64,000 bases of DNA, taken from an uncultured Sphingomonas sp. GTDB lineage: Bacteria; Pseudomonadota; Alphaproteobacteria; Sphingomonadales; Sphingomonadaceae. Shown here piece by piece: positions 22,156 to 39,972 of this stretch. A program made the position numbers and the translations under genes. The notes under the pieces are model-generated. The model was not told where the DNA came from. It worked only from the letters and a program-made list of their open reading frames with translations, and did not search any database. The stretch spans positions 1-64,000 of the forward strand of contig CAMLSA010000004.1 in the NCBI GenBank assembly GCA_946482655.1. Direction: 5' to 3'. Within the stretch, counting starts at the first letter, position 1, and every line of letters begins with the position of its first letter.

Positions 22156-22162
22156 CCGGCCG

Positions 22163-24419: not shown

Positions 24420-25433
24420 TCAATCCGGGCTGGTCGGTGGTTTGCAACCCGTCCCCGCATAGATGCGGTCGATCAGGCGGGCCGAATCGATTAGATGCTC
24501 GGACGCGGGATCGTGACGCGGGTCCGCTGCAAGGCGCTCCATCCAGGCCACCGCGGCGCGGCCGCCCCACGCATCCGGCGGTGCGACGATCTGCTCGGCT
24601 TGCGTGCCCCTGTAGCGCCATGCCGCGAAATCATAGAAGGAGCCGCCGACGTTCTTGATCGCCGCGCCTCCCTCGGTGCCGTAGAACTCCGCCGAGATGA
24701 CGGCCTCCTGTCCGGCGGCCAGTCCCCAGGAACACGCGATGCGGATCGGAACGCCGCTGTCGAGGAGGATCTCGGCCACCGCATAGTCCTCGACCTGCCC
24801 GGCGCGATCGACGAGCGGCGCGCCTTTGGCGAGGAGTCGTCCCGATACGCTCACGACCGCGGGGAAGCCGAGGGTCCACAGGGCCAGATCGATCATATGG
24901 ATTCCCAAGTCCATCAGGCAACCGCCGCCGGACAGCGCCGGGTCGTAGAACCAGGGCTTGTCCGGCCCGTACGCGTTGTGAAAGACGAGATCGACCCCGT
25001 AGATCGAGCCGAGCTCGCCCCGTTGAACGGCGTGCCGGATCGGTTGTATCGCCGCCGTGTGGCGATAGGACAGGTCGATTCCGATCAGCCGATCGGAGCG
25101 CCGCGCCGCGGCGACAACCTGCTCCACCTCGCCCGAGTTCCGCCCGAGCGGCTTCTGGCAGAAGACGGCCTTGCCACGGTCGAGGGCCTCGATAGCCTGA
25201 GCGGCATGCAGGGCGCTCGGCGTCGCGATCACCACGCCATCGAGATCGAGCGCCAACATGGCCGCCAGCGAGTCGGCCGGTTCGGCGCCCGGCGCCGACT
25301 TCAGCGCCTCGGCGAGATTGGCTGTAATCGGATCGGCAATGGCCACAGCCTCGGCGCCGGCCGCCAGCAGCGCCTCCATTCGGTTGCGCCCGATCCAGCC
25401 GACGCCGAGAAAGCCCAGCCGGGGCGCACTCAT
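24420..25433 (-). CDS. Gfo/Idh/MocA family oxidoreductase
   Basis: This is a 337-residue NAD(P)-dependent sugar or polyol oxidoreductase. The Rossmann start is LGFLGVGWIGRNR; the second-domain signature lysine lies in VFCQKPLGRN, the counterpart of the family EKP motif; a GGGCLMDLGIHMIDLALWTL segment supplies the catalytic His region. Family substrates include inositols, glucose derivatives and UDP-sugars. The start overlaps the upstream dehydrogenase by 4 bp. The inositol-phosphate synthase gene nearby makes an inositol-type substrate plausible, but that is inference. Confidence 0.88.
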   Translation of the reverse strand: MSAPRLGFLGVGWIGRNRMEALLAAGAEAVAIADPITANLAEALKSAPGAEPADSLAAMLALDLDGVVIATPSALHAAQAIEALDRGKAVFCQKPLGRNSGEVEQVVAAARRSDRLIGIDLSYRHTAAIQPIRHAVQRGELGSIYGVDLVFHNAYGPDKPWFYDPALSGGGCLMDLGIHMIDLALWTLGFPAVVSVSGRLLAKGAPLVDRAGQVEDYAVAEILLDSGVPIRIACSWGLAAGQEAVISAEFYGTEGGAAIKNVGGSFYDFAAWRYRGTQAEQIVAPPDAWGGRAAVAWMERLAADPRHDPASEHLIDSARLIDRIYAGTGCKPPTSPD

Positions 25434-26386
25434 GGAATGACCAGCGCCTTGACGAAGCCTTCTGGCTTATCGCGGGTCGCGTCGAGCGCTTCGCCGAGCC
25501 GTTCGAGCGGATAGACGTGAGAATAGAGCGGGCTGGGGTCGAGCCGCCCCTCGGCTATCGCCGCCACCGCGGCTTCTATTCCGCGGGCATAGACCTTAGG
25601 ATCGCGTTCATGCGCGTTGACCACGTCGATCCCGCGCCAGTTCCAAAGCCACATGTTGACTTGTCGCGGCCCGTCCTGGTGATAACCGGCGACGATGAGC
25701 CGACCGCGCTCGGCGGTCAGCTCGCCGGCGAGATCAAGCGGCCATTGCTTGCCCACGGCTTCGATCACCCGTTCGCAGAACCGCCCTTCGGTGAGCCGGT
25801 TCACCCGATCGATGATCGCCCGGTGATCATCCATCAAGATCAATTCGGCAGCGCCGAAGCGCTGGGCGAGATCGAGCGACGAGGCCCGTCTCGAGAGCGC
25901 GATGATCCGTGCGCCGGCCTGGGCCGCGAGGCTCGTCAGCAGCGCGCCCAGAAAGCCGACGCCGATGATCGCCACAGTCTGGCCGGCTGCGATGTCGGAC
26001 CGCTCGAAGATGTTCATCACGCAGCCGAGCGGTTCGCCGGGAAACGGCTGGCCACCCAGGCTTTCTGGAATGCGAACGCAGGCATCGGCGTCGCAAAGAT
26101 CATATTCGGCATAGGCGGCGTAGGAGAGGGCGGAGACCCGCTCGCCTATCCGAAGGTGCCGCACGCCTTGGCCCAGCGCGTCCACCAGGCCCCAGCCCTC
26201 ATGGCCGAGCGATCCTGGTTCCAGCGGATAGTTCATCCATTCGGGACCGGCCCATGGCGTAAGGTTGGACGCACACACGCCGCAGCCCTCCAGCCTGATC
26301 CGTACCTGCCCCGGTCCGGGTTCGGGCATGGGAATCCGCTCGAGGCGGACCTCGCCGGGTGCGGCCACCACGGCGGCCGTCATCAT
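25430..26386 (-). CDS. Medium-chain (zinc-type) alcohol dehydrogenase
   Basis: This is a 318-residue MDR protein. It has GHEGWG, a catalytic-site CGVCASN segment, and the cofactor motif GVGFLGALLTSLAAQAGARI. The structural-zinc Cys cluster of classical alcohol dehydrogenases is not evident, so this is a shorter sugar- or polyol-dehydrogenase type. The ATG at 26386 (followed by another at 26383) has GGTGAG seven bases upstream; the longer frame to 26461 lacks homology. It is coupled by a 4-bp overlap to the Gfo/Idh gene. Confidence 0.85.
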   Translation of the reverse strand: MMTAAVVAAPGEVRLERIPMPEPGPGQVRIRLEGCGVCASNLTPWAGPEWMNYPLEPGSLGHEGWGLVDALGQGVRHLRIGERVSALSYAAYAEYDLCDADACVRIPESLGGQPFPGEPLGCVMNIFERSDIAAGQTVAIIGVGFLGALLTSLAAQAGARIIALSRRASSLDLAQRFGAAELILMDDHRAIIDRVNRLTEGRFCERVIEAVGKQWPLDLAGELTAERGRLIVAGYHQDGPRQVNMWLWNWRGIDVVNAHERDPKVYARGIEAAVAAIAEGRLDPSPLYSHVYPLERLGEALDATRDKPEGFVKALVIP

Positions 26387-26484
26387 GGCCGGGCTCACCG
26401 AAACCTCGAACGCGACGAGAAAGGGAGCCGAGCGCGACGCGACGCGTTTGTGCCGTTCCACCTGTAGAACATCGGAGATTCACC

Positions 26485-26763
26485 ATGGCGACCAAGAAGG
26501 GAAACACCGCGAAGGCCGACGGGCTGCATCGGCCCGTCCAGCCGTCCAAGGAACTCGGCGCGATCGTCGGTGAGAAGCCGATGACGCGGGCCGACGTGGT
26601 GAGCAAGATCTGGGACTATATCAAGAAGAACAAGCTTCAGGATCCGAAGGACGGCCGCAACATCAATGCCGACGACAAGCTCGCCAAGATATTCGGTAAG
26701 AAGCAGGCGACGATGTTCGAGATGAACAAGCATATTTCGGGGCACCTCAAGCCGGCGGGTTGA
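26485..26763 (+). CDS. SWIB/MDM2 domain protein
   Basis: This is a 92-residue basic protein. After a Lys-rich start it consists of one SWIB domain: LGAIVGEKPMTRADVVSKIW, DYIKKNKLQDPKDGRNINAD, DKLAKIFGKKQATMFEMNKH and a C-terminal GHLKPAG. SWIB domains are chromatin-associated in eukaryotes and occur as stand-alone proteins in some bacteria, with a suggested DNA-related role. GGAG lies seven bases before the ATG. The last 17 bp overlap the end of the convergent inositol-phosphate synthase gene. Confidence 0.9.
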   Translation: MATKKGNTAKADGLHRPVQPSKELGAIVGEKPMTRADVVSKIWDYIKKNKLQDPKDGRNINADDKLAKIFGKKQATMFEMNKHISGHLKPAG

Positions 26764-27856
26764 GGAAGCGCTCGAGCGCGGCATGCGCGGCATCGTCCGT
26801 CATCTGCAGCGGAGGATGCTTGCAGAAATAGGCTGAGGCCGGGTCGATCGGCCCGCCAAGGCCGCGGTCGAGCGCGAGCCGCGCGCACCGGATCATGTCG
26901 ATCGCGACCCCGGCCGAATTGGGGCTGTCCTCCACCGACAGGCGCAGCTCCAGGTTCATCGGCACGCCGCCGAACAACTGGCCTTCCATTCGCAGGAAGC
27001 ACACCTTGTTGTCGTTCTGCCAGGCGACATAATCCGACGGCCCGATATGGATGTCGTCGTCCTCAAGCCGATGTTCGGCGACGGACTGGACCGCCTCCGT
27101 CTTGGAAATTTTCTTCGACACCAGCCGCGCGCGGTTCGACATGTTGAGGAAATCGGTGTTGCCGCCGGTATTGAGCTGATAGGTGCGGTCGAGCCTCACG
27201 CCGCGCTTGGCGAACAGATCGGTTAGCACGCGATGGATGATCGTGGCACCCATCTGCGCCTTGATGTCGTCGCCGATGATCGGCACGCCAGCGCTGGCGA
27301 AGCGTTGCGCCCAACATGGGTCGCTGGCGATGAAGACGGGAATGGCGTTGACGAAGCAGACCCCGGCCGCCAGTGCGCATTCCGCGTAGAATTCAGTGGC
27401 TTCCCGCGATCCCACCGGAAGATAGTTGATCAGCACGTCGACCTCGGCCGAGCGGAGCCGGTCGACCACCTCGTCATGACCGGGTTCGGGGGCGTCGGCG
27501 ATCACGAAGGTTCGATCGGTGGCGTAGTCCGCCATATGGTCCGCTACACCGTCGAGCACGCGTCCCATCTCGACGCTCACCCCGCTCGCGGGCACATCGC
27601 CGCAGAATGTGGCGGTGCAGTTCGGCTTCGCGAAGATCGCTTCCGCGATGTCTCGCCCCACCTTGCGCGCGTCGATGTCCCACGCCGCGGCGAGGCGAAT
27701 GTCGCCCGGCTGGTAGCCGCCGATCTCCCATTGACGCAGGCCGGTCAGGTCGTTGCGCCCATCGGCATAATAAGCGAGCCCCTGGACGAGCGAACTCGCG
27801 CAATTGCCGATCCCGACGATAGCCAGATTGATCGGCCGCGAAGCGGGTGCGAGCAT
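26747..27856 (-). CDS. ino1: Inositol-3-phosphate synthase
   Basis: This 369-residue enzyme converts glucose 6-phosphate to 1L-myo-inositol 3-phosphate with NAD. It has the short prokaryotic form: NLAIVGIGNCASSLVQGLAY, VDVLINYLPVGSREATEFYA, PVFIASDPCWAQRF, GDDIKAQMGATIIHRVL, YQLNTGGNTDFLNM and KISKTEAVQ with active-site lysines. This form is typical of actinobacteria and archaea and is uncommon in proteobacteria. GAGGAG precedes the ATG. It lies 10 bp after the glycosidase-like gene in a four-gene minus-strand operon, which places inositol at the centre of this locus. Confidence 0.93.
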   Translation of the reverse strand: MLAPASRPINLAIVGIGNCASSLVQGLAYYADGRNDLTGLRQWEIGGYQPGDIRLAAAWDIDARKVGRDIAEAIFAKPNCTATFCGDVPASGVSVEMGRVLDGVADHMADYATDRTFVIADAPEPGHDEVVDRLRSAEVDVLINYLPVGSREATEFYAECALAAGVCFVNAIPVFIASDPCWAQRFASAGVPIIGDDIKAQMGATIIHRVLTDLFAKRGVRLDRTYQLNTGGNTDFLNMSNRARLVSKKISKTEAVQSVAEHRLEDDDIHIGPSDYVAWQNDNKVCFLRMEGQLFGGVPMNLELRLSVEDSPNSAGVAIDMIRCARLALDRGLGGPIDPASAYFCKHPPLQMTDDAAHAALERFLNPPA

Positions 27857-27866
27857 GTTTTTCTCC

Positions 27867-28781
27867 TCAGGCCGAAAGCGCCGCCCGGAATCGGGCGGGG
27901 GCGTAGCGTTCGATCATTCCCGCGCAGAAGTCGGCAAAGGCCTGGCTGTCGACGGGCGGGCTCGTGTGGTGCGGCGCGAGCCCCAGATGCTCCGGTGTGA
28001 AGCAGAAGGTCAGCGTCACCTCGAAATCCTCGATCGCTTCCATCTGACGGTCGAACCAGCCGAGCGCATCGGGGCGGAAGCTGTCGGCCCAGCTCAAGCC
28101 GGTTCGCAAGTGGCGGACGCCGAGGCGTTTCATCCAGGCGACTGCCGCGTCGAGGCGCGGATCCCGATAGTGAAACCATTGCATCAGGCCAATATGGCCG
28201 GCGAAGCGGGCATAATGGTCCAACGCGGCTTTGGGCGTACCGTCCTCCCGGATCAGCCCCATATAGAAATGGCGGTAATAGCTAGATCCCTCGGCTTCGC
28301 GGTGGCGGGTGGTGGCGCCCCAGCTCTGGGGCAGATCGAACAGGCTGTACCAGAAGATGCGTGGCACGCGGCCGATCAGCAACTCGGCGGTCCGGTCGAT
28401 GCCGAAGACCTGGACTTCCTCGGCACCGAACGAGCCGACGCCAACCTCGGTCACCCAGACCGGTTTGTCGGTAACGGCTTCGATCTCGGCGATCTTGTCG
28501 GGCCAAGCGTTGATCGGCCATAGGTTCCAATCGAGCGGGAAGCCGTGCACCGCGACCACGTCCACCGCATCGAGCGCCCCATGACTGCCCATGGTCTCGA
28601 TCCAGCAGGGGTCGATCGGTGACATTCCGCCGAGCACGCGCACGATCTCCGGATTGGCCTGCCCGATGGCGCTGCCGGCCCGCAGCACGCAATCCGCATA
28701 GAGCCGCCAGTCGGGATCCGCTTCGATATCCCAGTGGGATTTGTTGTTCGGCTCATTCCAGATCATTGCCGCTTCGATCAT
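27867..28781 (-). CDS. TIM-barrel glycosidase-like protein, apparently circularly permuted
   Basis: This is a 304-residue protein starting in an ATGA overlap. Two clan GH-A hallmarks are present: IWNEPN with acid/base Glu10, and VTEVG with nucleophile Glu112, spaced as usual. The Glu10 motif, normally near residue 150 at the end of strand 4, is here at the very start. Residues 130-195 look like strands 7-8 and the usual C-terminus (RIFWYSLFDLP, GLIREDGTPKAALDHYARF). Residues 200-295 look like the missing strands 1-3 (MKRLGVRHLRTGLSWADSF, VTLTFCFTPEHLG). The halves appear swapped. It could be a beta-glycosidase acting on a locus product or an intracellular glycoside. No signal peptide. Confidence 0.7.
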   Translation of the reverse strand: MIEAAMIWNEPNNKSHWDIEADPDWRLYADCVLRAGSAIGQANPEIVRVLGGMSPIDPCWIETMGSHGALDAVDVVAVHGFPLDWNLWPINAWPDKIAEIEAVTDKPVWVTEVGVGSFGAEEVQVFGIDRTAELLIGRVPRIFWYSLFDLPQSWGATTRHREAEGSSYYRHFYMGLIREDGTPKAALDHYARFAGHIGLMQWFHYRDPRLDAAVAWMKRLGVRHLRTGLSWADSFRPDALGWFDRQMEAIEDFEVTLTFCFTPEHLGLAPHHTSPPVDSQAFADFCAGMIERYAPARFRAALSA

Positions 28782-29560
28782 GTATCGCGTCCTCTCGCCG
28801 GATAAACCGCTCCCACGCCGGGCCCCCACTTCCGATATGGTGTCTCTGCCGCGCGGCAGACATAGACCTCGTCGGTCGGGCCGACCTCGATGCGGAAACC
28901 GGCGCTGCGCAGCATCGCTTCGGTCGCCGCGCGGTTGGGCACCCACCAGTTGGTCCAGTCATGCGCGAACTCGCGCTCTATGAAGTGAAGCTTGGGATAG
29001 CCGGGCTCCGAAAAGTCGTCGGGCTCATTGAAGTCATAGTCGGGTTTCACCGGCGCCACCTCGGGAGATCCCCGGGTTAGCGACTGGAAGACCAGCATGT
29101 CGGCCGCGACATGTTCACGGACCAGGTCGAGCGCGAGCAGAGGGTGCCTGAGATGATAGAAAACGCCCATGAAAATGACCATGTCGAAGCGGCGTCCGAG
29201 CCTGGCGACATCGTAGACCGACAGATTGCGGAACTCGATGTCGGTGAAACCACGCGCTTCGGCGACGAAGCTGGCCTGCCTCAGATAATGGTCGTCCGAG
29301 TCGATGCCGAGCACATAGGCGGCGCCGCGATGCTTCATCTCGATCGAGTAGAAGCCCGCGTTGCATCCGATATCCAGCACCGTTTTTCCCGTCAGATCGG
29401 CGGGAAGAGCCGCGGCGAAGCGACGGAATTTGGCGCCGGGGTAGTCGCCGAGAAAATGATCCGGGGCGGTCCAGACACCATCGATCTCGATGTTGTGAAA
29501 CCACGGGCCCAGCGCGGCGATATTTTCGCGCAACGCCTCGCGGGGGAAATGCCGGTTCAT
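28778..29560 (-). CDS. CmoB-like SAM-dependent methyltransferase
   Basis: This is a 260-residue class I methyltransferase with SAM motif VLDIGCNAGFYS near residue 61, acidic motif II at GIDSDDHY, and FMGVFYHLRHPLLALD, strongly reminiscent of CmoB/tRNA-wobble-uridine methyltransferase relatives. The N-terminal helix lacks the longer CmoB extension. In this operon, between a phosphatase and a glycosidase-like gene, a saccharide or cyclitol substrate is more likely than tRNA. It overlaps both neighbours by 4 bp. Confidence 0.85.
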   Translation of the reverse strand: MNRHFPREALRENIAALGPWFHNIEIDGVWTAPDHFLGDYPGAKFRRFAAALPADLTGKTVLDIGCNAGFYSIEMKHRGAAYVLGIDSDDHYLRQASFVAEARGFTDIEFRNLSVYDVARLGRRFDMVIFMGVFYHLRHPLLALDLVREHVAADMLVFQSLTRGSPEVAPVKPDYDFNEPDDFSEPGYPKLHFIEREFAHDWTNWWVPNRAATEAMLRSAGFRIEVGPTDEVYVCRAAETPYRKWGPGVGAVYPARGRDT

Positions 29561-30153
29561 CGCGGCACCTCATTCAGGCCGAGTAAGCGCCCGCGCCCGC
29601 CTTGGTCTTCGAGAAGCAGCGTGCTCAGCGAACCGGGATCGACGTCGAAGCGCAGCAGCTTGTCCAGGCCCAGTCCCAGATAGTGCGCGACCGCCGCCCG
29701 GATCATGTCACAATGGCTGACGCATAGGATATGGCTCGCGCCCGCCGCCGCGAGATGCTCGAGATGGCCAACGATCCGCGTCGTCGCCTCCGTCATCGAT
29801 TCACCGCCCGGCGCGGCAGCGGCATGGCGGGCATCGTTCCAGTGCCGCCAGCCCTGATCGGCATCCAGGTCCGCGAAGCTGCGACCGGCCCACGCGCCGA
29901 AATCGATCTCGTCAAGCGCGGTCACCGGATCGCAGGCGACCCCCAGATGATCGGCGACGATTTCGGCGGTGCGCCAGGCGCGCCGGCAGGGGCTGGAATG
30001 GACTGCGGTCACACCTCTTGTGAGACAGGCGCGGGCGAGGCGCTGCGCCTGGCCATGCCCCTCGGGTGACAGCTCGATGTGCGACCGACCCGATAGGATC
30101 GCCCCGAGCTCGGCATGAGAACCGTGACGGGCTAGAAAGATCAGCGCGCCCAT
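29557..30153 (-). CDS. Histidine phosphatase family protein
   Basis: This 198-residue protein of the phosphoglycerate-mutase-like superfamily has FLARHG near the start with the phospho-acceptor His, SSPCRRAWRTAEIVAD with the second Arg, LDEIDFGAWAGRSF with the acid residue, and VSHCDMIRA with the second catalytic His. The ATG at 30153 fits the family start, although the Shine-Dalgarno is weak. It is the first gene of the minus-strand operon and faces the AT-rich control region. It could dephosphorylate inositol phosphate or a sugar phosphate; no separate inositol monophosphatase gene is seen in the window. Confidence 0.87.
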   Translation of the reverse strand: MGALIFLARHGSHAELGAILSGRSHIELSPEGHGQAQRLARACLTRGVTAVHSSPCRRAWRTAEIVADHLGVACDPVTALDEIDFGAWAGRSFADLDADQGWRHWNDARHAAAAPGGESMTEATTRIVGHLEHLAAAGASHILCVSHCDMIRAAVAHYLGLGLDKLLRFDVDPGSLSTLLLEDQGGRGRLLGLNEVPR

Positions 30154-30283
30154 GGCGATTGTTGCGGAAGCATCAACATAGATGCTCGTAAACCGCAGAT
30201 GACTACATTGTTTCAACTAGAAGAGCCTGCCTGCGATGAACTGAACCTTAACGAAGACAAGTTGTTCGCAATAGGGGAACAAG

Positions 30284-30382
30284 ATGATGAAGAAGCTCGT
30301 CTTACTGTTCTGTAATCTGAACGAACAAAAGCGAACGGGGATAATCTATGTTAAGTGGATAAACTATTACGGATCCCATTAA
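30284..30382 (+). CDS. Possible 32-residue leader peptide
   Basis: An ATG at 30284, with GGGGA five bases upstream, opens a 32-codon frame ending in TAA at 30380. The peptide starts MMKKLVLLFCNLNEQ and is basic-hydrophobic with several aromatic residues near the end (YVKWINYYG). Codon use is AT-rich, unlike the neighbours. It stops 70 bp before the epimerase gene. It could be a leader peptide or chance in AT-rich DNA. Confidence 0.3.
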   Translation: MMKKLVLLFCNLNEQKRTGIIYVKWINYYGSH

Positions 30383-30411
30383 GTTCCATTTTACTTATGT
30401 TAGTCTTAACA

Positions 30412-30437
30412 TTTGATAAGCTTTCTGCCTTATCAAA
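30412..30437. repeat. Perfect 9-bp palindrome (operator or leader hairpin)
   Basis: TTTGATAAG at 30412-30420 and CTTATCAAA at 30429-30437 are perfect inverted repeats around 8 nt. The second arm ends next to the GAGGAG ribosome site of the epimerase gene (ATG 30452). It could bind a dimeric regulator or form an RNA hairpin affecting translation. Confidence 0.55.
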
Positions 30438-30451
30438 ATGAGGAGCCTTGC

Positions 30452-31561
30452 ATGGAAACGATCCTCATTACCGGCGGCGCGGGCTTTATCGGCCGGTCGG
30501 TAGCCGCCGAACTGCTGCGCCGCGGCCATCGGATTCGCGTGCTCGACAGCCTCATCGAGCAGGTTCACGGCCCGCAACCCGCTCCTGCACTGGCGGACGA
30601 TGTCGAGCTGGTCCGCGGTGACGTCCGGGACGGTGACCTCGTCGCGACTGCGCTGCGCGGCGTGGACAGCGTCGTCCACCTCGCGGCTGAGGTGGGCGTC
30701 GGACAGTCGATGTACGAGGTCGAGCGCTATACCTCCGCCAATGACGTCGGCACCGCGGTGCTGTTCGAGCGACTGATCGATCATCCGGTCCGCAGGGTCG
30801 TCACTGCCTCGTCGATGAGCATCTATGGTGAGGGCCTGTACCGTGATGCGGACGGCACGCTCGTGGAGGACGCCGAACGATCGGCGTTGCGCGACGGGCA
30901 GAAGAACTGGGAGCCGCTCGATGCCCGCGGCCGGCCGTTATCGCCGCTCGCGACACCCGAATGGAAACGGCCCAACCTCGCCTCGATCTACGCGCTCAAC
31001 AAATATGTCCAGGAGCGTACCACCCAGATCATGACACGCCCCTACGGGATCGAGGGCGTATGCCTGCGGCTGTTCAACGTCTATGGACCCGGCCAGGCGC
31101 TTTCCAATCCCTATACCGGCGTTCTTGCAATCTTCGCGTCGCGGCTGCTTAACGGCCAGCAGCCGATGATCTTCGAGGACGGCGAACAACGTCGCGATTT
31201 CGTCCATGTCGGCGATGTCGCGCGCGCCTTCGCCGATGCGCTGTTCCTGCCCGAAGCAGCGGGAGGAATCTTCAACATCGGCTCGGGGCAGGATCGCTCG
31301 GTGAGCGAGGTCGCGACCGAACTGGCGCGTGCGATGGGCAAGAACGACATCGCGCCCGAGATCGTGGGAAAGGCGCGGATCGGCGATATCCGCCATTGCT
31401 TTTGCGACACGCGGCTCGCCGCCGAGCGGCTCGGCTTCGCGGCCCGGCAGGATTTTGGCCAAGGACTCGCCGAGCTTGCCGAATGGGTCGCCCGGCAGAG
31501 CGCCGTCGATCGGGTCGAGCAGGCCCGCGCCGAGCTTGAGGTTCGGGGACTGGTGGCATGA
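30452..31561 (+). CDS. NAD-dependent epimerase/dehydratase (dTDP-rhamnose 4-epimerase-like)
   Basis: This is a 369-residue extended SDR. It has GGAGFIG at residues 8-14, TASSMSIYG, and SIYALNKYVQE with Tyr-x3-Lys; the C-terminal part has GEQRRDFVHVGDVARAF and FNIGSGQDRSVSEV. A roughly 45-residue insert (DADGTLVEDAERS to PLATPEWK) before the Tyr is typical of dTDP-L-rhamnose 4-epimerase-like enzymes. The ATG at 30452 has GAGGAG six bases upstream. It is the first gene of a seven-gene operon, with 4-bp overlaps following. Confidence 0.85.
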   Translation: METILITGGAGFIGRSVAAELLRRGHRIRVLDSLIEQVHGPQPAPALADDVELVRGDVRDGDLVATALRGVDSVVHLAAEVGVGQSMYEVERYTSANDVGTAVLFERLIDHPVRRVVTASSMSIYGEGLYRDADGTLVEDAERSALRDGQKNWEPLDARGRPLSPLATPEWKRPNLASIYALNKYVQERTTQIMTRPYGIEGVCLRLFNVYGPGQALSNPYTGVLAIFASRLLNGQQPMIFEDGEQRRDFVHVGDVARAFADALFLPEAAGGIFNIGSGQDRSVSEVATELARAMGKNDIAPEIVGKARIGDIRHCFCDTRLAAERLGFAARQDFGQGLAELAEWVARQSAVDRVEQARAELEVRGLVA

Positions 31562-32652
31562 TCGGCCCCGATCCCCGCGAGGATGGCCGGCCTGTCCTGA
31601 TCACCGGCGGCGCCGGCTTCATCGGGTCGAATATCGCCGATCGCCTCGCCGTTGCGGGACATGATGTCCTGGTCTACGACAGCCTCGTCCGACCCGGGGT
31701 CGAACGGAACCTCGCCTGGCTCCACGCGCGGCATCCCGGCCGGATCGCCACTTTGATCGCCGATGTGCGCGACGAGGACCGGCTCCGCGGCGCCGTAGCC
31801 GGCGCCAAGGCCGTGTACCATATGGCGGCCCAGGTCGCCGTCACGACCAGCCTGATCGATCCGGGCGACGACTTCGACGTCAACATCCGCGGCACGTTCA
31901 ATCTGCTCGAGGCGGTGCGGACCGAAGCTCCCGAAACTCCGCTCGTCTTCGCCTCGACCAACAAGGTGTATGGCGACTTGCGCGGCGTCCAGCTCATGCT
32001 CGACGAGGAGGGTTATCGCCCGATCGACGAGTTGCTGTTGCGACACGGCATCAATGAGGACCAGCCACTCGATTTCCACACGCCCTATGGCTGTTCCAAA
32101 GGGGCGGCCGACCAATATGTGCTAGATTATGCGCGCAGTTATGGATTGCGCGCGGCGGTGTTCCGGATGAGCTGCATCTATGGGCAACGCCAGATGGGAA
32201 CCGAAGACCAGGGCTGGGTCGCTCATTTCCTGATCCAGGCCTTGCTCGGCCGGCCGATTACCATCTATGGAAACGGCCATCAGGTTCGCGACATATTGGA
32301 CGTGTCGGACGCGGTGTCTGCCTATGTCGCCGCCTGGACCTATATCGACGATATTCGCGGCCGGGCCTATAATCTGGGCGGGGGCACAGCCAACGCGGTG
32401 AGCCTGCTGCGGCTGACCGACCATATCGGCCGGATGTTCGGTCATGAGGTGCGGGTCGATTTTGCCGACTGGCGCGCCGGCGACCAGCGCTATTTCGTGG
32501 CCGATACGCTGAAGGCCGAAGCCGAGCTCGCATTGGGACTGAAGACGCCCTGGCGGCTTGGCGTCGAGCGGCTCGCGCGCTGGCTTGCGGCCGAACGTGG
32601 CATAGCCTGGCCTGGCGCGGACACCGAACCTCTGGTGGCGGGCGTGCTGTGA
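31558..32652 (+). CDS. NAD-dependent epimerase (CDP-paratose 2-epimerase-like)
   Basis: This 364-residue extended SDR has GGAGFIGSN at the start, STNKVYGDL, and TPYGCSKGAADQYV with Tyr-x3-Lys. The segments RMSCIYGQRQMGTEDQGWVA and YNLGGGTANAVSLLRL closely recall CDP-paratose 2-epimerase (tyvelose pathway), more than UDP-galactose epimerase. Its exact NDP-sugar is uncertain. The ATG overlaps the previous stop (ATGA). Confidence 0.83.
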   Translation: MIGPDPREDGRPVLITGGAGFIGSNIADRLAVAGHDVLVYDSLVRPGVERNLAWLHARHPGRIATLIADVRDEDRLRGAVAGAKAVYHMAAQVAVTTSLIDPGDDFDVNIRGTFNLLEAVRTEAPETPLVFASTNKVYGDLRGVQLMLDEEGYRPIDELLLRHGINEDQPLDFHTPYGCSKGAADQYVLDYARSYGLRAAVFRMSCIYGQRQMGTEDQGWVAHFLIQALLGRPITIYGNGHQVRDILDVSDAVSAYVAAWTYIDDIRGRAYNLGGGTANAVSLLRLTDHIGRMFGHEVRVDFADWRAGDQRYFVADTLKAEAELALGLKTPWRLGVERLARWLAAERGIAWPGADTEPLVAGVL

Positions 32653-33761
32653 AGCGGCCGTCGCGCGTCCTGATGACGGCCGATGCGGTCGGCGGTGTCT
32701 GGTCCTACGCGATCGACCTCGCGCGCGGCCTGACGGGCAAGGGCATCGAGGTGGATCTGGCGCTGCTCGGGCCCGCACCCGATGCGAAGCAGATCCGGGC
32801 GGCGCGGGCGATCGAAGGGCTTCAGCTGATCGTCACGGACGCCGAGCTCGACTGGCTGTCCGATGGCCCCGCGGACGTGGCCCGGTCGGCAGCATCCATC
32901 CGCGATCTTCTCGACAGGCGCGGCGCCGACATCCTCCATCTCAACAGCCCGGCACTCGCCGCGGAAGTGGGCTTCGACCTCCCTGTCTTGGCCGGCGCGC
33001 ACAGCTGCCTCGGAAGCTGGTGGGATGCGGTGCGGGGGGATGCGTTGCCGGCCGACTTCGCCTGGCGCGACCGTCAGCACGGGCAAGGGCTTCGCCGTGC
33101 CGACCTCGTGGCCGCGCCGTCGCGGGCCTTCGCTGAAGTCACCCGTGAACGCCATCATCTTAGGGAAATGCCCGAGGTGATTCACAACGGCCGCAAGGCA
33201 CTGGCCTCCAATCCGTCGGTGATGCACGACTTCGCCTTCACGGCCGGCCGTCTGTGGGATGAGGGAAAGAACCTCCTTACCCTCGATCGGGCGGCGGCGC
33301 GGCTGGCGGTACCCTTGAAGGCGGCGGGTGCGTGTCAGGCGCCGCATGGCGGCCAGGCGCGGTTTGAACATCTATGCTGCCTTGGGCAGATCGGCGAGGC
33401 CGAGTTGGGGTCTATCCTCGCGGCTCGTCCGGTCTTTGCCTCCGCCGCGATCTACGAGCCGTTCGGGCTTGCGGTACTCGAAGCCGCGGCGGCCGGTTGC
33501 CCGCTCGTCCTGTCCGACATCCCGACCTTTCGCGAATTGTGGGACGGCGCCGCGACCTTCGTCGCAGCCGATGACGATCGTGGCTTCGCCGGCGCGATCG
33601 ACCGACTGATCTCCGACAGTGCACTGCGGCTCGCCTGCGGTCACGACGCCCGGAGGCGCGCGCGGCGCTTTTCCCTGGAGAATATGACCGAACAGGTGGT
33701 CGCGGCTTATGGCGCGCTGCTGAGCCGCACTCTGCCGGCGGCGGGGAAGGCGGCGGCATGA
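32649..33761 (+). CDS. Glycosyltransferase family 4
   Basis: This is a 370-residue GT-B protein starting at a GTG in a GTGA overlap. The N-terminal domain has DAVGGVWSYAIDLARGLTGK, the acceptor-side signature; the C-terminal domain has AGRLWDEGKNLLTLDRAAAR and the donor motif YEPFGLAVLEAAAAGCPLVL with the paired Glu. It is soluble with no signal. It probably builds the glycan of this locus. Confidence 0.87.
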   Translation: MKRPSRVLMTADAVGGVWSYAIDLARGLTGKGIEVDLALLGPAPDAKQIRAARAIEGLQLIVTDAELDWLSDGPADVARSAASIRDLLDRRGADILHLNSPALAAEVGFDLPVLAGAHSCLGSWWDAVRGDALPADFAWRDRQHGQGLRRADLVAAPSRAFAEVTRERHHLREMPEVIHNGRKALASNPSVMHDFAFTAGRLWDEGKNLLTLDRAAARLAVPLKAAGACQAPHGGQARFEHLCCLGQIGEAELGSILAARPVFASAAIYEPFGLAVLEAAAAGCPLVLSDIPTFRELWDGAATFVAADDDRGFAGAIDRLISDSALRLACGHDARRRARRFSLENMTEQVVAAYGALLSRTLPAAGKAAA

Positions 33762-34870
33762 AGATCGCCTATTTCACCCATTCGCTAATGTCCTGCTGGA
33801 ATCATGGCAACGCCCATTTTCTGCGCGGCGTGTTGAGCGAGTTGCAGGCACGCGGCCATCAGGCCGTCGCCTTCGAGCAGAAAGGCAATTGGAGCCTCGC
33901 CAATCTGGTCGCCGATCACGGCATGGCCGGCCTCGAACCCTTCATCAACGCCTATCCCGAGCTGCGCACGCGCAGCTACAAGGCCGGTGCGTCCGTCGAT
34001 CCCCTGGTGGATGCTGCGGATCTCGTGATCGTGCATGAATGGAACAATCCCAAGCTGGTCGCGTCGGTCGGCGAGGCGCGCAAGCGTGGCGGGCGGTTCA
34101 CCTTGCTGTTTCACGATACCCATCATCGCGCTGTCAGCGACGCGGAGGCGATCCGGGCCTTCGATCTTTCGGGCTATGATGGTGTGCTGGCTTTCGGAGA
34201 GGCGCTGTCGGAGGTCTACCGCAGCTGGGGCTGGGCGGGGCGGGTCTGGACCTGGCACGAGGCCGCCGACATACGCCTCTTCCATCCGCCCGAGCGGGAG
34301 AAGCCACGTGAGGGATTGGTGTGGATCGGCAATTGGGGCGATGACGAGCGCTCGGCCGAGCTCGAAGATTTCCTATTCGCGCCGGCCCGCGCCGCGGGAC
34401 TGCCGCTCGACGTACACGGCGTGCGCTATCCGCCTCAGGCAGTCGCGACGATAAAGCGATACGACGCGCGCTACCATGGCTGGGCCGCCAATGCCGCCGC
34501 GCCGGAACTGTTCGCACGCCATCTCGCCACCGTCCATGTGCCGCGGCGCTATTATGCGACGCTGCTGCCAGGCATCCCTACCATTCGCATGTTCGAGGCG
34601 CTCGCCTGCGGCATCCCGCTTGTCTCGGCGCCGTGGGATGATGCCGAGGGCCTCTTCCGCCCGGGGTCGGATTATCTGGTGGCCCGCAGCGGCGAGGAGA
34701 TGACCGCGCATCTGCGCGCCATCGCCGCCGATCCCGCTCTGCGCCGATCGCTCGTCGACCATGGGCTGGAGACGATCCGTGCGCGTCACAGCTGCGCGCA
34801 TCGCGTGAACGAGCTGCTCGGGATCATTGCGGATCTCACCGCCCCCGCATCGGCAAGGAGCGTTGGATGA
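33758..34870 (+). CDS. CgeB-like glycosyltransferase (first of three)
   Basis: This is a 370-residue GT-B-like protein. It starts MKIAYFTHSLMSCWNHGNAH, has VIVHEWNNPKLVASVGEARK in the first half and HVPRRYYATLLPGIPTIRMF then EALACGIPLVSAPWDDAEGL in the donor-binding half, the CgeB/GT1-like signature. Two relatives follow directly with similar openings. ATGA overlap with the upstream gene. Confidence 0.82.
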   Translation: MKIAYFTHSLMSCWNHGNAHFLRGVLSELQARGHQAVAFEQKGNWSLANLVADHGMAGLEPFINAYPELRTRSYKAGASVDPLVDAADLVIVHEWNNPKLVASVGEARKRGGRFTLLFHDTHHRAVSDAEAIRAFDLSGYDGVLAFGEALSEVYRSWGWAGRVWTWHEAADIRLFHPPEREKPREGLVWIGNWGDDERSAELEDFLFAPARAAGLPLDVHGVRYPPQAVATIKRYDARYHGWAANAAAPELFARHLATVHVPRRYYATLLPGIPTIRMFEALACGIPLVSAPWDDAEGLFRPGSDYLVARSGEEMTAHLRAIAADPALRRSLVDHGLETIRARHSCAHRVNELLGIIADLTAPASARSVG

Positions 34871-35955
34871 AGATTGCCTTTTACGGATCGAGCCTGCTGT
34901 CGTCCTATTGGAATGGCGCCGCCACCTATTATCGCGGCATGCTCAAGGCGCTGGCCGCGCGCGGCTACCGGATCAGCTTCTACGAACCCGACGCGTTCGA
35001 CCGGCAACTGCACCGGGACATCGATCCGCCCGGCTGGGCGCGTTCCGTGGTCTATCCCGCTACTGTGGCTGCGCTCCGACAGGTCCTGGACGAGGCGGCG
35101 GACGCCGACATCGTCGTCAAGGCGAGCGGAGTCGGCGTGTTCGACACCGAGCTGCTCGAGGGCCTGCTGGCCCGCCGCCGCCCCGGCACGCTGCAGATAT
35201 TCTGGGATGTCGACGCCGCGGCGACCCTCGACGAGATGCGGGGCGACGCCGATCATCCGGTACGGCGCGCCTTGCCCGCGCTCGATCTGGTGCTCACCTA
35301 CGGCGGAGGGCCGCCGGTCGTCGACGCCTATCGGGGCTTTGGGGCCGCGACCTGCGTGCCGGTCTACAATGCGCTCGATCCGGAGACCCATTTCCCGGTC
35401 GGGCCGGATCCGCGCTTCGCGTGCGACCTGGCCTTTCTCGGCAACCGGCTGCCCGACCGCGAAGCCCGTGTCGGCGAGTTCTTCCTGAAGCCGGCGGGCC
35501 TGCTTTCCGATCGCCGCTTCCTGATCGGCGGCAATGGGTGGGAGACGGGGGCGATGGCGCCCAATGTCCGCCATCACGGCCACGTCTACACGGCCGAGCA
35601 CAATGCCTTCAACTGCACTCCGCTCGCGGTGCTCAACATTGCCCGCGACAGCATGGCGGCAGTCGGCTTCTCACCCGCGACGCGCGTGTTCGAAGCGGCC
35701 GGGGCGGGGGCATGCCTGATCACCGACCGATGGGAGGGTATCGAGATGTTCCTGACGCCCGGCAGCGAAGTGCTCGTCGCCCGCGACGGCCAGGACGTCG
35801 CCGAACTGCTGGCGGGGCTCACCCTCGAAGGAGCGCGAGCGATCGGCGGCGGCGCGCTTGAGCGCGTTCGGACCGAGCACAGCTACGATCTGCGCGCCGC
35901 ACAGGCCGACCGGTTGTTCCGCGAGCAGCTTGCCCGGCAGCGGGTGCCGGCATGA
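34867..35955 (+). CDS. CgeB-like glycosyltransferase (second of three)
   Basis: This is a 362-residue protein opening MKIAFYGSSLLSSYWNGAAT, with LQIFWDVDAAATLDEMRGD and LVLTYGGGPPVVDAYRGFGA in the first half and LNIARDSMAAVGFSPATRVF, then EAAGAGACLITDRWEGIEMF in the C-terminal CgeB-type domain. The FWDVDAAATLDE and TYGGGPPV segments parallel FYDIDTPVTLARL and SFTGGPTL in the third copy, so the two are closer to each other than to the first. Confidence 0.83.
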   Translation: MKIAFYGSSLLSSYWNGAATYYRGMLKALAARGYRISFYEPDAFDRQLHRDIDPPGWARSVVYPATVAALRQVLDEAADADIVVKASGVGVFDTELLEGLLARRRPGTLQIFWDVDAAATLDEMRGDADHPVRRALPALDLVLTYGGGPPVVDAYRGFGAATCVPVYNALDPETHFPVGPDPRFACDLAFLGNRLPDREARVGEFFLKPAGLLSDRRFLIGGNGWETGAMAPNVRHHGHVYTAEHNAFNCTPLAVLNIARDSMAAVGFSPATRVFEAAGAGACLITDRWEGIEMFLTPGSEVLVARDGQDVAELLAGLTLEGARAIGGGALERVRTEHSYDLRAAQADRLFREQLARQRVPA

Positions 35956-37046
35956 CCGCGCCGATGCGCCTCGTCGTCCTCGGGCTCAGCCTCTCCTCTT
36001 CCTGGGGAAACGGGCATGCGACGACCTATCGGGCCCTCCTGTCCGCCTTCGCCGCGCGGGGACACGACATATTGTTCCTCGAGCGGGATGTGCCCTGGTA
36101 CGCTGGGCATCGCGACCTCGCCGGACCCGAATATTGCCGCCTGGCCTTCTATTCGGACTTGTCCGATCTTCGCCGCTGGAGCGGTGAAATCGCCGCCGCG
36201 GACGCGGTGATTGTCGGCTCCTATGTTCCCGAGGGAATCCTGGTCGGCCGCTTCGTGCAGGATGTCGCGGAGGGCGTGACCGCCTTCTACGACATCGATA
36301 CGCCCGTGACTCTGGCTAGGCTCGAACGCGGCGAGCATGAATATTTGAACCCCGAGCTGATCCGCGATTACGATCTCTATCTGTCCTTCACCGGCGGTCC
36401 GACCCTGAATCTCATCGAAGAGCGCTATGGCTCGCCGGCCGCACGGGCGCTCTATTGCTCGGTCGATCCGGAAATATACCGGATGCTGGATGTCCCCAAG
36501 CGCTGGGATCTGTCCTATCTTGGCACCTATAGCCCGGATCGCCAGCCGATGCTCGATCAGCTGCTGATCGAGCCCGCGCGCGCCTTGCCGCACATGCGCT
36601 TCGTCGTGGCCGGGCCGCAATATCCGGGCGACATCGATTGGCCCGCCAATGTCGAGCGGATCGAGCATCTCCCGCCCCCAGACCATGCCGCCTTCTACAA
36701 CGCGTCGCGCTATACGCTCAACGTTACCCGCACCGATATGATCAAGGCCGGCTGGTCACCCTCGGTGCGCCTGTTCGAGGCGGCGGCCACAGCGACGCCG
36801 ATCATCTCCGACGTCTGGCCCGGCATCGGCGACCTGTTCGACCCCGGCCGCGACATCATTCTCGCCGAGCGCGCCGACCGGGTGATCCGCACCCTGGCGC
36901 GCGATCATGACGTGCTCGGCCGGGCGGGCCGCGCGCGCGTTCTCGGGGCCCACACCTCGGCACATCGCGCGGCGCAACTCGAATCCTATCTCGTCGAATC
37001 GGTCCGGCCCGTTGATGCCGTCCCCTTCGTCCAGAATGCCAGTTGA
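35952..37046 (+). CDS. CgeB-like glycosyltransferase (third of three)
   Basis: This is a 364-residue protein. It opens with LVVLGLSLSSSWGNGHATTY, has AFYDIDTPVTLARLERGEHE and ALYCSVDPEIYRMLDVPKRW, then LSYLGTYSPDRQPMLDQLLI and the C-terminal LNVTRTDMIKAGWSPSVRLF, EAAATATPIISDVWPGIGDL. This last block matches the CgeB C-terminal domain closely. ATGA overlap upstream and a 10-bp gap to the decarboxylase-like gene. Confidence 0.85.
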   Translation: MTAPMRLVVLGLSLSSSWGNGHATTYRALLSAFAARGHDILFLERDVPWYAGHRDLAGPEYCRLAFYSDLSDLRRWSGEIAAADAVIVGSYVPEGILVGRFVQDVAEGVTAFYDIDTPVTLARLERGEHEYLNPELIRDYDLYLSFTGGPTLNLIEERYGSPAARALYCSVDPEIYRMLDVPKRWDLSYLGTYSPDRQPMLDQLLIEPARALPHMRFVVAGPQYPGDIDWPANVERIEHLPPPDHAAFYNASRYTLNVTRTDMIKAGWSPSVRLFEAAATATPIISDVWPGIGDLFDPGRDIILAERADRVIRTLARDHDVLGRAGRARVLGAHTSAHRAAQLESYLVESVRPVDAVPFVQNAS

Positions 37047-37056
37047 GGAGCAGCGT

Positions 37057-38082
37057 ATGACCGACCCGACAGGCCCCATCACCCTCGTAGCAGGCGGCGC
37101 GGGCTTCATCGGCTCGCACCTGTGCAAGGCGCTGCTCGACCGCGGCGAGAGCGTGATCTGTCTCGACAATCTCCAGACATCGCGCCCCGTCAACCTGCGG
37201 CCGCTCGAACAATATACGGAGTTCAGCTTCGTCGAGGCCGACATCGTCAATCCGCTGCCGCTCGACATCCTTGAAAGGACAAGCCGGATCCGCCGGATCT
37301 ACAATCTCGCCTGCGCAGCATCGCCGCCGCAGTATCAGGCCGATCCCGAGCATACGATGCTGACCAACGTCGTCGGTACCGATCATCTCCTCCGGCTCGC
37401 GGAGCGGGCGGGGGCCCGGTTCCTGCTGAGCTCGACCAGCGAGGTCTATGGCGATCCCGAGGAGCACCCTCAGCGCGAGGATTATCGCGGCTGGGTGAAC
37501 TGCACCGGCCCGCGCGCCTGTTATGACGAGGGTAAGCGCGCGGCGGAGGCGATGGCGTTCGATTTCGCGCGGATGGGGCGCGCCGAGGTCCGCGTGGCGC
37601 GCATCTTCAATACCTACGGTCCGCAGATGCACCCCGACGACGGGCGCGTGGTATCCAACCTTATCTGTCAGGCGCTGTCGGGCAGGGACATCACCATCTA
37701 TGGGGACGGCAGCCAGACGCGGAGCTTCTGCTATGTTTCCGACATGGTGGACGGGCTGATCGCGCTGATGGAGAGCGATCTCGAGCGGAACGAGCCGGTC
37801 AACCTGGGCAATCCGCTCGAGATCAGCGTCAATGAGCTGCTCCGCCACGTCATCGCGTTGACGGGATGCGATGCCCGGCTGGCCTACAAGGCGCTGCCGA
37901 TCGATGATCCGCGCCGCCGCAAGCCCGATATCAGCCGTGCCGAGCAGGCATTGGGCTGGCGTCCCAGGGTAGCCCTCGAAACCGGGCTGGCCGCCACCTG
38001 CGCCTGGTTCGCGGAGGAGATCAGCGACGCCCGGGGGGCCTGCGCGCCCGAGCCGGAGGCACTGCGCGTACCGGCGACCTGA
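37057..38082 (+). CDS. UDP-glucuronate decarboxylase-like NAD-dependent epimerase
   Basis: This is a 341-residue extended SDR with VAGGAGFIGSHLC at the start, IYNLACAASPPQYQADPEHT (the UXS signature), STSEVYGDPEEHPQ and ACYDEGKRAAEA with Tyr-x3-Lys, and ARIFNTYGPQMHPDDGRVVS. These match UDP-xylose synthase, which converts UDP-glucuronate to UDP-xylose. GAGGAG lies before the ATG. It is the last gene of the plus-strand operon and suggests a pentose in the product. Confidence 0.88.
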   Translation: MTDPTGPITLVAGGAGFIGSHLCKALLDRGESVICLDNLQTSRPVNLRPLEQYTEFSFVEADIVNPLPLDILERTSRIRRIYNLACAASPPQYQADPEHTMLTNVVGTDHLLRLAERAGARFLLSSTSEVYGDPEEHPQREDYRGWVNCTGPRACYDEGKRAAEAMAFDFARMGRAEVRVARIFNTYGPQMHPDDGRVVSNLICQALSGRDITIYGDGSQTRSFCYVSDMVDGLIALMESDLERNEPVNLGNPLEISVNELLRHVIALTGCDARLAYKALPIDDPRRRKPDISRAEQALGWRPRVALETGLAATCAWFAEEISDARGACAPEPEALRVPAT

Positions 38083-38464: not shown

Positions 38465-39193
38465 CTAATCGCTCGCGCTGACCCTGAGCGGCCGATAACT
38501 CACGAGGTCCGCCAGGCGTTGGCGATCCAGCAGGCGGACCATCCCGCCGCGAAGATCGATCAGCTCTTCCCGCCGCATCAGCTGGAGCGTCCGGTTTACG
38601 TGCACGCTGGTCAGTCCCAATATGTCGGCCAGCGCTTCCTGGGTCAGCGGCATGGGGAAACGCCCCTCCTCCGCGATACCCGCCTGGTCGAGCCGTTCGT
38701 GCATCTCGAGCAGCCAATCGCTCATCCGCTCATAGGCGTTGAACCTGCCCAGGCGCGCTATCTGGCGAAACAGGCACGCTTCCTCGAGGGCGCCGCCGCG
38801 GTCATAGGCTACCGTGAGCGCGGACTGGCCCGTATCGGGTTCCGCGGCGGGCGCGGAGATGATGCTGGCTTCGGTGAGCGTACCTATCGACGTCACCGCC
38901 AGCGGATTTTCCTGACGGCAATGACCGAAGATATCACCGGGCAGGAGCAGGCTGAGGATCTGACGGCGGCCATCGGAAAAGATCCGAGTGCGGCACATCC
39001 ATCCGCTCAGCACGATGGCCGGCTTCGGGTTGGGCTGGCCCTCGGCGATCAGTTCGCGATGGGCGCGGAGCCTCTGCGGGGTTCTGGCCGCCGCCTCCAG
39101 CAGCGCGATCTCGCTTTCGCCCAGCGGTGCCAGTCCGGACAGACGTGTGATGGCGGGCGGGCGGACCCGAGCCAAGGCGGGTTTGGAATTCAT
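38465..39193 (-). CDS. Crp/Fnr family transcriptional regulator
   Basis: This is a 242-residue protein. It has a cyclic-nucleotide-binding-like beta barrel (residues about 30-145, including ELIAEGQPNPKPAIVLSGWM and QILSLLLPGDIFGHCRQENP) and a C-terminal HTH_Crp (PMPLTQEALADILGLTSVHV, NRTLQLMRREELI). There is no N-terminal Cys cluster, so it is not an Fnr-type iron-sulfur sensor. The ATG at 39193 has GGAG six bases upstream; the longer frame to 39409 runs into the next gene. Ligand unknown. Confidence 0.88.
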   Translation of the reverse strand: MNSKPALARVRPPAITRLSGLAPLGESEIALLEAAARTPQRLRAHRELIAEGQPNPKPAIVLSGWMCRTRIFSDGRRQILSLLLPGDIFGHCRQENPLAVTSIGTLTEASIISAPAAEPDTGQSALTVAYDRGGALEEACLFRQIARLGRFNAYERMSDWLLEMHERLDQAGIAEEGRFPMPLTQEALADILGLTSVHVNRTLQLMRREELIDLRGGMVRLLDRQRLADLVSYRPLRVSASD

Positions 39194-39225
39194 GCTGGGC
39201 TCCACCATGGGCCCCCCGCCGTCAT

Positions 39226-39972
39226 TTAGACCACGCGGGCGGCCACCGCGTCCAGTGGGATCGTGATGATACAGGTTAAACCGCCGGGACGCAGATCGAA
39301 TGTCGACTCGGCGCCGAGCTGGTAAGGCAGCGCCTGCTCGATATATTCGCGCCCGAACCCACGGCGCAGAGGTGCGGCGCCGAGTACCGCGATGCCGCTC
39401 TCGGCCCACTCGAAGCGCAGCCTGTCCTCTCGAGTGGTCCAGCTTATCCGCAGGCGCGCCCGCGAATCGGTACCGGACAGCGTGCCGAACTTGATCGAGT
39501 TGGTAACGAGTTCGTGGACGGCGAGCGCGGCAAGTTGAGCAACCTCCTGGCCAATGCGGGTGTCGATGCCGTCAATCGCGATCGACGGGTCGTCGCCGAA
39601 CTGGAAGGCGGAGAGTTCGTCGCGAACCAGTTGCTCGAAATCCACCGTCACGCCCGACGAGACGGCCTGGAAGGACTGATAGCGCGAGATCGTATCGAGC
39701 CTGCCGCCAAAATGATCGGCGATATCCTCCAAGGAGCTGCCGCTTGCGACAGTGCGCGAAAATATCGAGCGGACGATGGCCAGGATGTTCCGGACGCGGT
39801 GCTGAAGTTCCGCCTGCAGCAGGGCTTCGCGTAGACTAGCGGCTCCCAGGCGTTTCTCGGTCTCGCACAGCGCGCGGTGGGCGGCCGTCAGTTGGACTTC
39901 CAGCGCCTCGCCCCCGCCGGAGGATGGCTTCGGATGGATCGATCCGGCTTCGGACGGAAAACTCTCACTCAC
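39226..39972 (-). CDS. HWE-family histidine kinase without a recognisable sensor domain
   Basis: This is a 248-residue protein. The GTG at 39972 is preferred because GGAAGGA lies eight bases upstream; the ATG at 40041 has no ribosome site. The first 50 residues are linker and coil. The HWE core follows: ELQHRVRNILAIVRSI with His58, LAALAVHELVTNSIKFGTLS (N-box), WAESG, and GREYIEQALPYQLGAESTFD. No PAS or membrane domain is seen, so its input must come from another protein. It is divergent from the second HWE kinase gene. Confidence 0.83.
   Translation of the reverse strand: MSESFPSEAGSIHPKPSSGGGEALEVQLTAAHRALCETEKRLGAASLREALLQAELQHRVRNILAIVRSIFSRTVASGSSLEDIADHFGGRLDTISRYQSFQAVSSGVTVDFEQLVRDELSAFQFGDDPSIAIDGIDTRIGQEVAQLAALAVHELVTNSIKFGTLSGTDSRARLRISWTTREDRLRFEWAESGIAVLGAAPLRRGFGREYIEQALPYQLGAESTFDLRPGGLTCIITIPLDAVAARVV

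Follow-up and report, generated by a model that had tools for sequence, protein, structure and literature searches.

The general stress response allows plant and soil alphaproteobacteria to survive drying, salt, and starvation, and part of its output is unknown. PslG of Pseudomonas aeruginosa and the GH39 β-xylosidases share a barrel with a WNEPN region holding the likely acid/base and a TEVG region holding the likely nucleophile; the catalytic glutamates of PslG/GH39-like glycosidases are located on strands 4 and 7, and the group belongs to clan GH-A, while GH70 and MalS belong to clan GH-H. Natural circular permutation of a glycosidase is described for GH70 and MalS (GH13_19), which are α-glucan enzymes, in the portions of the sources available. 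The mycothiol pathway uses an inositol-3-phosphate synthase, a GT4 glycosyltransferase, and a phosphatase. TIGR04290 and TIGR04295 are known as protein names only, and neither identifier, nor a pathway for them, was found in the literature searched. The EcfG/PhyR general stress regulon of Sphingomonas melonis Fr1 has the promoter motif GGAAC-N17–20-GTT, according to the available portion of PMC6599016. Here we describe a thirteen-gene locus in a 64,000-nucleotide stretch of DNA (the window) from an uncultured Sphingomonas sp. (contig CAMLSA010000004.1 of GCA_946482655.1, positions 1 to 64,000). This locus carries the EcfG-type motif, a TIGR04290 methyltransferase, the three mycothiol-type enzyme families, and a glycosidase with a PslG/GH39-type barrel whose chain begins at strand 4, with strands 1–3 at the C-terminus. 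Its gene content suggests that, under stress, it probably yields a cytosolic glycoside that contains xylose and is methylated, with inositol as the acceptor in many species. No description of the cluster was found in the literature searched, which was mostly without subscription papers and supplementary files. CgeB and inositol are not mentioned in the main text of PMC6599016, whose supplementary tables may list the cluster under locus numbers, and the cluster is not named in the available passages of papers on Ensifer inositol metabolism, on S. meliloti TolC and predation, and on Ramlibacter.

To compare the locus with others, we scanned one genome per species with a profile of the methyltransferase. 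At least 593 stretches matched, at least 561 of which were true relatives; the best 80 of these and seven plasmid loci made up a set of 87 loci, and gene counts were taken from the 67 uncut by a contig end after excluding 20 on short contigs. We also made an even draw of 289 genomes of the class Alphaproteobacteria, including that of Sphingosinicella terrae. In this draw, the methyltransferase and the second CgeB-type transferase (CgB) were found in the identical 14 genomes: CgB was present in 14/14 methyltransferase-positive genomes and in 0/275 others. The two genes were 1.8–8.6 kb apart in 12 of the 14 genomes and on different contigs in the other 2. Because the methyltransferase and CgB co-occur across genomes, the gene arrangement is far beyond chance, and the gene set is a real, shared biosynthetic locus that forms one functional set. 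Co-occurrence in other genomes, on which a preliminary description of this DNA had staked its reading, was thus confirmed. In the 67 uncut loci, we found the glycosidase in 61, phosphatase in 55, first short-chain dehydrogenase/reductase (SDR1) in 53, GT4 in 55, CgeB-type transferases A, B, and C in 55, 52, and 51, inositol-phosphate synthase in 47, UDP-xylose synthase (UXS)-like gene in 40, Gfo gene in 35, and zinc-type dehydrogenase in 32; since the 80 are the closest loci, these counts overstate the synthase and glycosidase relative to the 289-genome draw. The methyltransferase adjoined the glycosidase in 60 of the 67. The transferase block was missing from 12 of the 67, and in all 12 of these genomes a CgB relative (61–74% identity) was present elsewhere.

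All thirteen genes that the preliminary description had placed in two divergent operons were found at the positions and on the strands below, in frame and without internal stops, with the domains it had named. The operons are separated by a 298-bp gap (30154–30451). The minus operon comprises the histidine phosphatase, methyltransferase, glycosidase-like gene, inositol-3-phosphate synthase, zinc-type dehydrogenase, and Gfo/Idh oxidoreductase, the last two separated from the synthase by ca. 360 bp; the plus operon comprises two SDRs, GT4, three CgeB-type transferases (PF13524), and the UXS-like decarboxylase.

24420..25433, minus strand: Gfo/Idh/MocA oxidoreductase, 337 amino acids (aa) (PF01408/PF22725)
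25430..26383, minus strand: zinc-type medium-chain dehydrogenase, 317 aa from ATG (PF08240/PF00107)
26747..27856, minus strand: inositol-3-phosphate synthase, 369 aa (PF01658; 418.5 bits to solved 1gr0)
27867..28781, minus strand: circularly permuted PslG/GH39-like glycosidase (predicted), 304 aa, likely acid/base E10, likely nucleophile E112
28778..29560, minus strand: TIGR04290 methyltransferase, 260 aa (368.9 bits, cut-off 300)
29557..30153, minus strand: histidine phosphatase, 198 aa (PF00300, 145.6 bits; RHG motif present)
30154..30451, no strand: divergent promoter region, 298 bp
30276..30301, plus strand: near-match GGAAC-N18-GTC, toward the SDR operon, one mismatch in the −10 part
30362..30387, minus strand: EcfG-type motif GGAAC-N18-GTT, toward the phosphatase operon, ca. 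210 bp from the phosphatase start
30452..31561, plus strand: SDR1, NDP-sugar epimerase/dehydratase family (PF01370)
31558..32652, plus strand: SDR2, CDP-tyvelose 2-epimerase-like (269.6 bits to 9rl0)
32649..33761, plus strand: GT4 glycosyltransferase (PF13439/PF00534)
33758..34870, plus strand: CgeB-type glycosyltransferase A (PF13524, 120.2 bits)
34867..35955, plus strand: CgeB-type glycosyltransferase B, CgB (PF13524, 120.1 bits)
35952..37046, plus strand: CgeB-type glycosyltransferase C (PF13524, 121.4 bits)
37057..38082, plus strand: UDP-glucuronate decarboxylase (UDP-xylose synthase)-like (324.9 bits to 4gll)

These positions include revised starts for the dehydrogenase (ca. 26383), phosphatase (30153), first SDR (30452), and UXS-like gene (ca. 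37057). The glycosidase begins MIEAAMIWNEPNN; a longer open reading frame, extending to 28946, does not represent this gene. The plus operon had been described as seven overlapping genes; 4-bp overlaps were present at all five junctions from SDR1 through the third CgeB-type gene, while the UXS gene starts ca. 10 bp past the latter if its start is 37057. In the minus operon, Gfo/dehydrogenase, glycosidase/methyltransferase, and methyltransferase/phosphatase also overlap.

The glycosidase is, judging from its profile matches and structure model, a circular permutant of a PslG/GH39-like barrel with predicted catalysis. Rotation of six family members raised the match to PslG from 29.4 to 48.2 bits; the rotated profile gave one continuous alignment over PslG residues 26–302, whereas the native order covered only 132–302. 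The structure model (pLDDT 88.9, pTM 0.88) is an eight-strand β/α barrel, and both the sequence rotation and the model place strands 4–8 first and strands 1–3 at the C-terminus. E10 and E112, which align with the NEPN and TEWG motifs of PslG and lie on or just past the modelled strands at residues 2–7 and 108–113, were invariant in 30/30 sequences of alignment A2 and of A3. Since the strand order was 4–8 and then 1–3, not the 1 to 8 expected of a GH39 member, we filed the enzyme as a permuted relative of this family. Structural fitting to PslG with VIA-align covered 175 residues at 2.3 Å with 25% identity; the remaining matches listed were generic barrels (4–13% identity), and most of these outranked PslG. 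A permutation test using Pfam was weak (PF11790, from 22.4 to 25.0 bits, the C-terminal piece alone having no match), and therefore the PDB-based test was made. A Foldseek search found no PDB entry matching at E ≤ 0.001, which fits a permutant and would fit plain divergence as well. A frameshift or mis-called start was also considered and rejected, as only 7 open residues (L012 and L040) or 9 (L008–L010) were present upstream of WNEPN. No circular permutant in the PslG/GH39 glycosidase group is listed in the literature searched. If the assignment is true, nature would here provide the first circular permutant known among PslG/GH39-type glycosidases, and with it a test case for how such barrels fold and catalyze. 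This permutation, along with the general-stress promoter motifs, goes beyond the preliminary description.

The divergent promoter contains an exact EcfG-type match (30362–30387), and the near-match at 30276–30301 resembles the exact site of another locus (L029). Among 52 divergent regions, the window included, GGAAC-N17–20-GTT gave 68 matches in 36 regions compared with 2.1 in shuffled regions (expected counts are from a simple dinucleotide shuffle); because some palindromic sites are read twice, 36/52 is the safer figure. The whole-locus background was 0.137 matches per kb. This looser S. melonis motif was adopted with the data in view, after the result for the canonical motif and inspection of the promoter, and a spacing scan and permuted −35 words served as controls. 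Matches peaked at spacings 17 (35 matches) and 18 (31), and the remaining 22 spacings tested gave 0–5 each; the best permuted word, CGGAA, gave 24 matches and the next 9, against 68 for GGAAC. In 15 non-sphingomonad regions, spacing 17 gave 11 matches in 6 regions. The canonical CGTT form (N16–17) was found 6 times in the 52 regions (0.39 expected). Those regions were chosen with a first gene table, and the 67-locus counts are from a later, revised table. Where a locus has no divergent gap, a sense-strand match was present in 22 of the 73 upstream stretches, whereas ca. 2 were expected from the average density. None of these 22 matches was in the scanned stretches of L036, L063, L066, and L085, which are acidobacterial or Longimicrobium loci; to our knowledge, EcfG is not expected in either group. 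A DUF1003 gene flanks 18 of the 67 uncut loci and a manganese catalase gene flanks the Sphingobium locus; we take both to be stress-linked genes.

Judging from these promoter motifs, the general stress response seems to activate the cluster; several observations weigh against this and the wider reading. The canonical GGAAC-N16–18-CGTT was not found in the divergent promoter of the window; it occurs once elsewhere in the window (0.84 expected). GGAAC-N17–18-GTT occurs 6 times in the window (1.5 expected), five of them outside the promoter of the locus. Only one of the two promoters in the window is exact. Sixteen of the 52 divergent regions, several from sphingomonads, lack the motif, and the 36 motif-bearing regions are not independent because the loci are related. 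In addition, the exact site is ca. 210 bp from the phosphatase gene, whereas EcfG motifs are enriched within 100 bp (PMC6599016, available portion). If general stress control is true, the locus would represent a part of the alphaproteobacterial general stress response not known so far, and a conserved locus with this promoter signature would give that response one concrete chemical output.

Two neighboring regions were recorded separately. HWE-type kinases feed the general stress response in alphaproteobacteria, and the region directly downstream of the cluster (38465–42029) encodes two histidine kinases of this type along with a Crp-type regulator. An α-amylase-family enzyme is paired with a GT4 at 20449–23188; in S. 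melonis, EcfG-dependent glycosyltransferase and glycosidases genes are listed side by side in the available part of PMC6599016.

The gene content suggests the following route, whose order of steps we infer. EcfG would turn on both operons from the one shared promoter region. The inositol-phosphate synthase, which has strong homology to known enzymes, followed by the histidine phosphatase, would supply inositol. The UXS-like protein would make UDP-xylose: residues 10–338 of 341 align with solved UDP-glucuronic acid decarboxylase 1 (324.9 bits), in line with its earlier naming as UXS-like, and by this homology one donor may well be UDP-xylose. The two SDRs may make a second activated sugar. The first, formerly called dTDP-rhamnose-epimerase-like, could be placed only as a generic SDR of the NDP-sugar type; the nearest solved relative of the second is CDP-tyvelose 2-epimerase (269.6 bits) instead of the CDP-paratose epimerase proposed before. 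GT4 and the three CgeB-type transferases would then assemble an oligosaccharide on an acceptor; no solved-structure relative of CgB was found up to E = 0.1. The methyltransferase, which the preliminary description called CmoB-like, keeps that likeness and is assigned more precisely to NCBI TIGR04290 (368.9 bits, over the curated cut-off of 300); named organisms near the top of its search were Sphingomonas. It would O-methylate the oligosaccharide, and the permuted glycosidase may trim or transfer a sugar. The product most likely stays in the cell as a stress protectant. The dehydrogenase scored far under the NCBIfam cut-offs (top 81.8 of 512.9 bits; scyllo-inosose 3-dehydrogenase, 79.4 of 450), and therefore its substrate specificity was left unassigned. 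The Gfo oxidoreductase was under every listed cut-off (top, inositol 2-dehydrogenase, 99.5 of 355 bits). Gene content, co-occurrence, promoter motifs, and glycosidase chain order are read from the DNA; enzyme activities, product, and transcription are predictions from sequence, which also counts against the reading. That a widely conserved, sometimes plasmid-borne locus driven by EcfG in both directions makes a small cytosolic glycoside seems to us an even call. A narrower proposal is tentative, and rather doubtful in its full form: the EcfG-driven product would be a methylated, xylose-containing inositol oligosaccharide, an internal protectant and bacterial counterpart of the plant inositol galactosides, with the permuted glycosidase, possibly as a transglycosidase, performing the last step.

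Over residues 5–365, nearly its full length, the synthase aligns with solved inositol-3-phosphate synthase 1gr0, presumably the M. tuberculosis enzyme (418.5 bits). It was found in 26 of the 289 genomes, so that its earlier description as uncommon is fair. Six of the 14 genomes with the core (methyltransferase and CgB) had it, compared with 20 of the 275 others (Fisher p = 0.0005). The glycosidase occurred in 6 of the 289 genomes, all core-positive, and 5 of these 6 also had the synthase. In 45 of the 47 uncut loci holding a synthase, this gene adjoined the phosphatase, glycosidase, or methyltransferase. Among whole genomes from the closest 80 loci, 19 had no synthase in the locus and 18 of these had one elsewhere, the sole exception being the Edaphobacter metagenome-assembled genome (MAG) of L036; the Rhizobium leguminosarum record, which is a plasmid only, also lacks one. 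This share exceeds that of the 289-genome draw because the 80 loci are those most closely related. On the other hand, the synthase was not found in 8 of the 14 core-positive genomes, nor was the glycosidase in 8 of the 14, and inositol as the acceptor is therefore not proven. The core product may then be made without de novo inositol, or inositol may come from outside; rhizobia can take up inositol. The same absences favor an alternative that we hold to be a genuine but lesser possibility, namely that the core oligosaccharide is built on another acceptor and that the synthase, phosphatase, and glycosidase form an accessory module or serve another pathway. The R. leguminosarum locus (L004), which has the core and two dehydrogenases and neither synthase nor glycosidase, fits this alternative, as do some sphingomonads in which the neighbors of the synthase are a nucleotidyltransferase and a CDP-alcohol transferase. 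The enrichment of the synthase with the core, its linkage within the loci, and the copies elsewhere, some of which serve another cluster, argue against it. Inositol is thus likely part of the product, though not universally, and the inositol reading is less certain than the preliminary description stated: genomes with the set hold the synthase more often than others do, and its presence follows that of the glycosidase, but more than half of the core-positive genomes (8/14) yielded no synthase.

Unlinked synthase genes beside a nucleotidyltransferase and a CDP-alcohol phosphotransferase occur in at least two sphingomonad genomes, in the two such loci examined (L088, 587–3319; L096, 730–3582), and may represent a distinct route to an inositol phosphodiester or lipid. 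A di-inositol-phosphate or phosphatidylinositol pathway was rejected for the locus, as both of these neighboring genes are absent from the thirteen.

The PslG/GH39-like glycosidase raises the question of a surface glycan or glycolipid, built on a lipid by the transferases and delivered to the envelope, because PslG belongs to an exopolysaccharide gene cluster (from the available part of the source); pyruvyl transferase and F420-type genes, each in 11 of the 67 uncut loci, also fit this. We consider it unlikely. Domain searches found no polymerase, flippase, initiating transferase, acyltransferase, or CDP-alcohol transferase among the thirteen genes, and the same envelope-glycan genes are absent inside the annotated blocks of L001–L004, L006, and L007. 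No hydrophobic N-terminus was found in the thirteen proteins, judged by hydropathy with no signal-peptide program run; the peak 19-residue means (2.06 and 2.04) belong to internal stretches of the dehydrogenase and synthase, both of soluble families. The preliminary description, which saw no polymerase, flippase, or Wzx/Wzy gene and favored a small glycoside or glycolipid over a polymer, holds in the absence of these genes, and a Wzx/Wzy or ABC exopolysaccharide locus was rejected. These absences fit a small cytosolic glycoside. A point against this reading is that the product may be exported via a gene elsewhere in the genome. In a search for extra conserved genes in the loci, the families returned looked mainly like shadow reading frames, and the absence of a shared transporter is therefore not proven.

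The synthase, whose only NCBIfam match is mycothiol Ino1 (449.8 bits), also brings to mind a mycothiol-like low-molecular-weight thiol or cofactor on inositol. MshA is a GT4 acting before a phosphatase, which agrees with the gene content. However, the locus differs from the mycothiol pathway in that the equivalog cut-offs were missed for both Ino1 (449.8 of 638 bits) and MshA (41.4 of 462.5 bits), and the later steps are absent, with no match to MshB, MshC, or MshD among the thirteen genes. The mycothiol pathway itself was rejected on these grounds, and a mycothiol-like product is highly improbable.

The loci are found in sphingomonads, Methylobacterium and kin, Bradyrhizobium, Rhizobium, Sinorhizobium, Paracoccus, Azospirillum, Acetobacteraceae, Phenylobacterium, and others, as well as in three acidobacterial MAGs and one Longimicrobium MAG; for these four (L036, L063, L066, and L085), transfer and mis-binning are both possible. 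On plasmids, the locus occurs in 87 records with 60–80% identity. Sphingomonas trueperi DSM 7225 (L027) carries the complete locus. Sister loci of Azospirillum and Bradyrhizobium encode a B12-binding radical SAM enzyme annotated as TIGR04295, located between the SDRs and GT4 (L002, 7487–8815; L006, 17278–18564). Relatives of this enzyme were present in 15 of the 87 loci, and an additional CgeB-type transferase together with a nucleotidyltransferase in 21 of the 87, adjacent in all 21. Given the radical SAM enzyme and the extra CgeB-type transferase, product variants are likely. The cluster is split in Sphingobium bisphenolivorans (L023 and L093) and Rhizorhapis suberifaciens (L053 and L095), where the methyltransferase lies apart from other members in the genome; L093 holds the synthase together with the phosphatase, glycosidase, and both dehydrogenases, and L095 holds the synthase beside CgB and CgC relatives.

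Elsewhere in the window, an 822-aa frame (9568–12036) shows an odd fusion of NAD-dependent epimerase, SPW, and VKOR domains, and a 585-aa frame (47725–49482) contains a Thoeris ThsB-like TIR domain.

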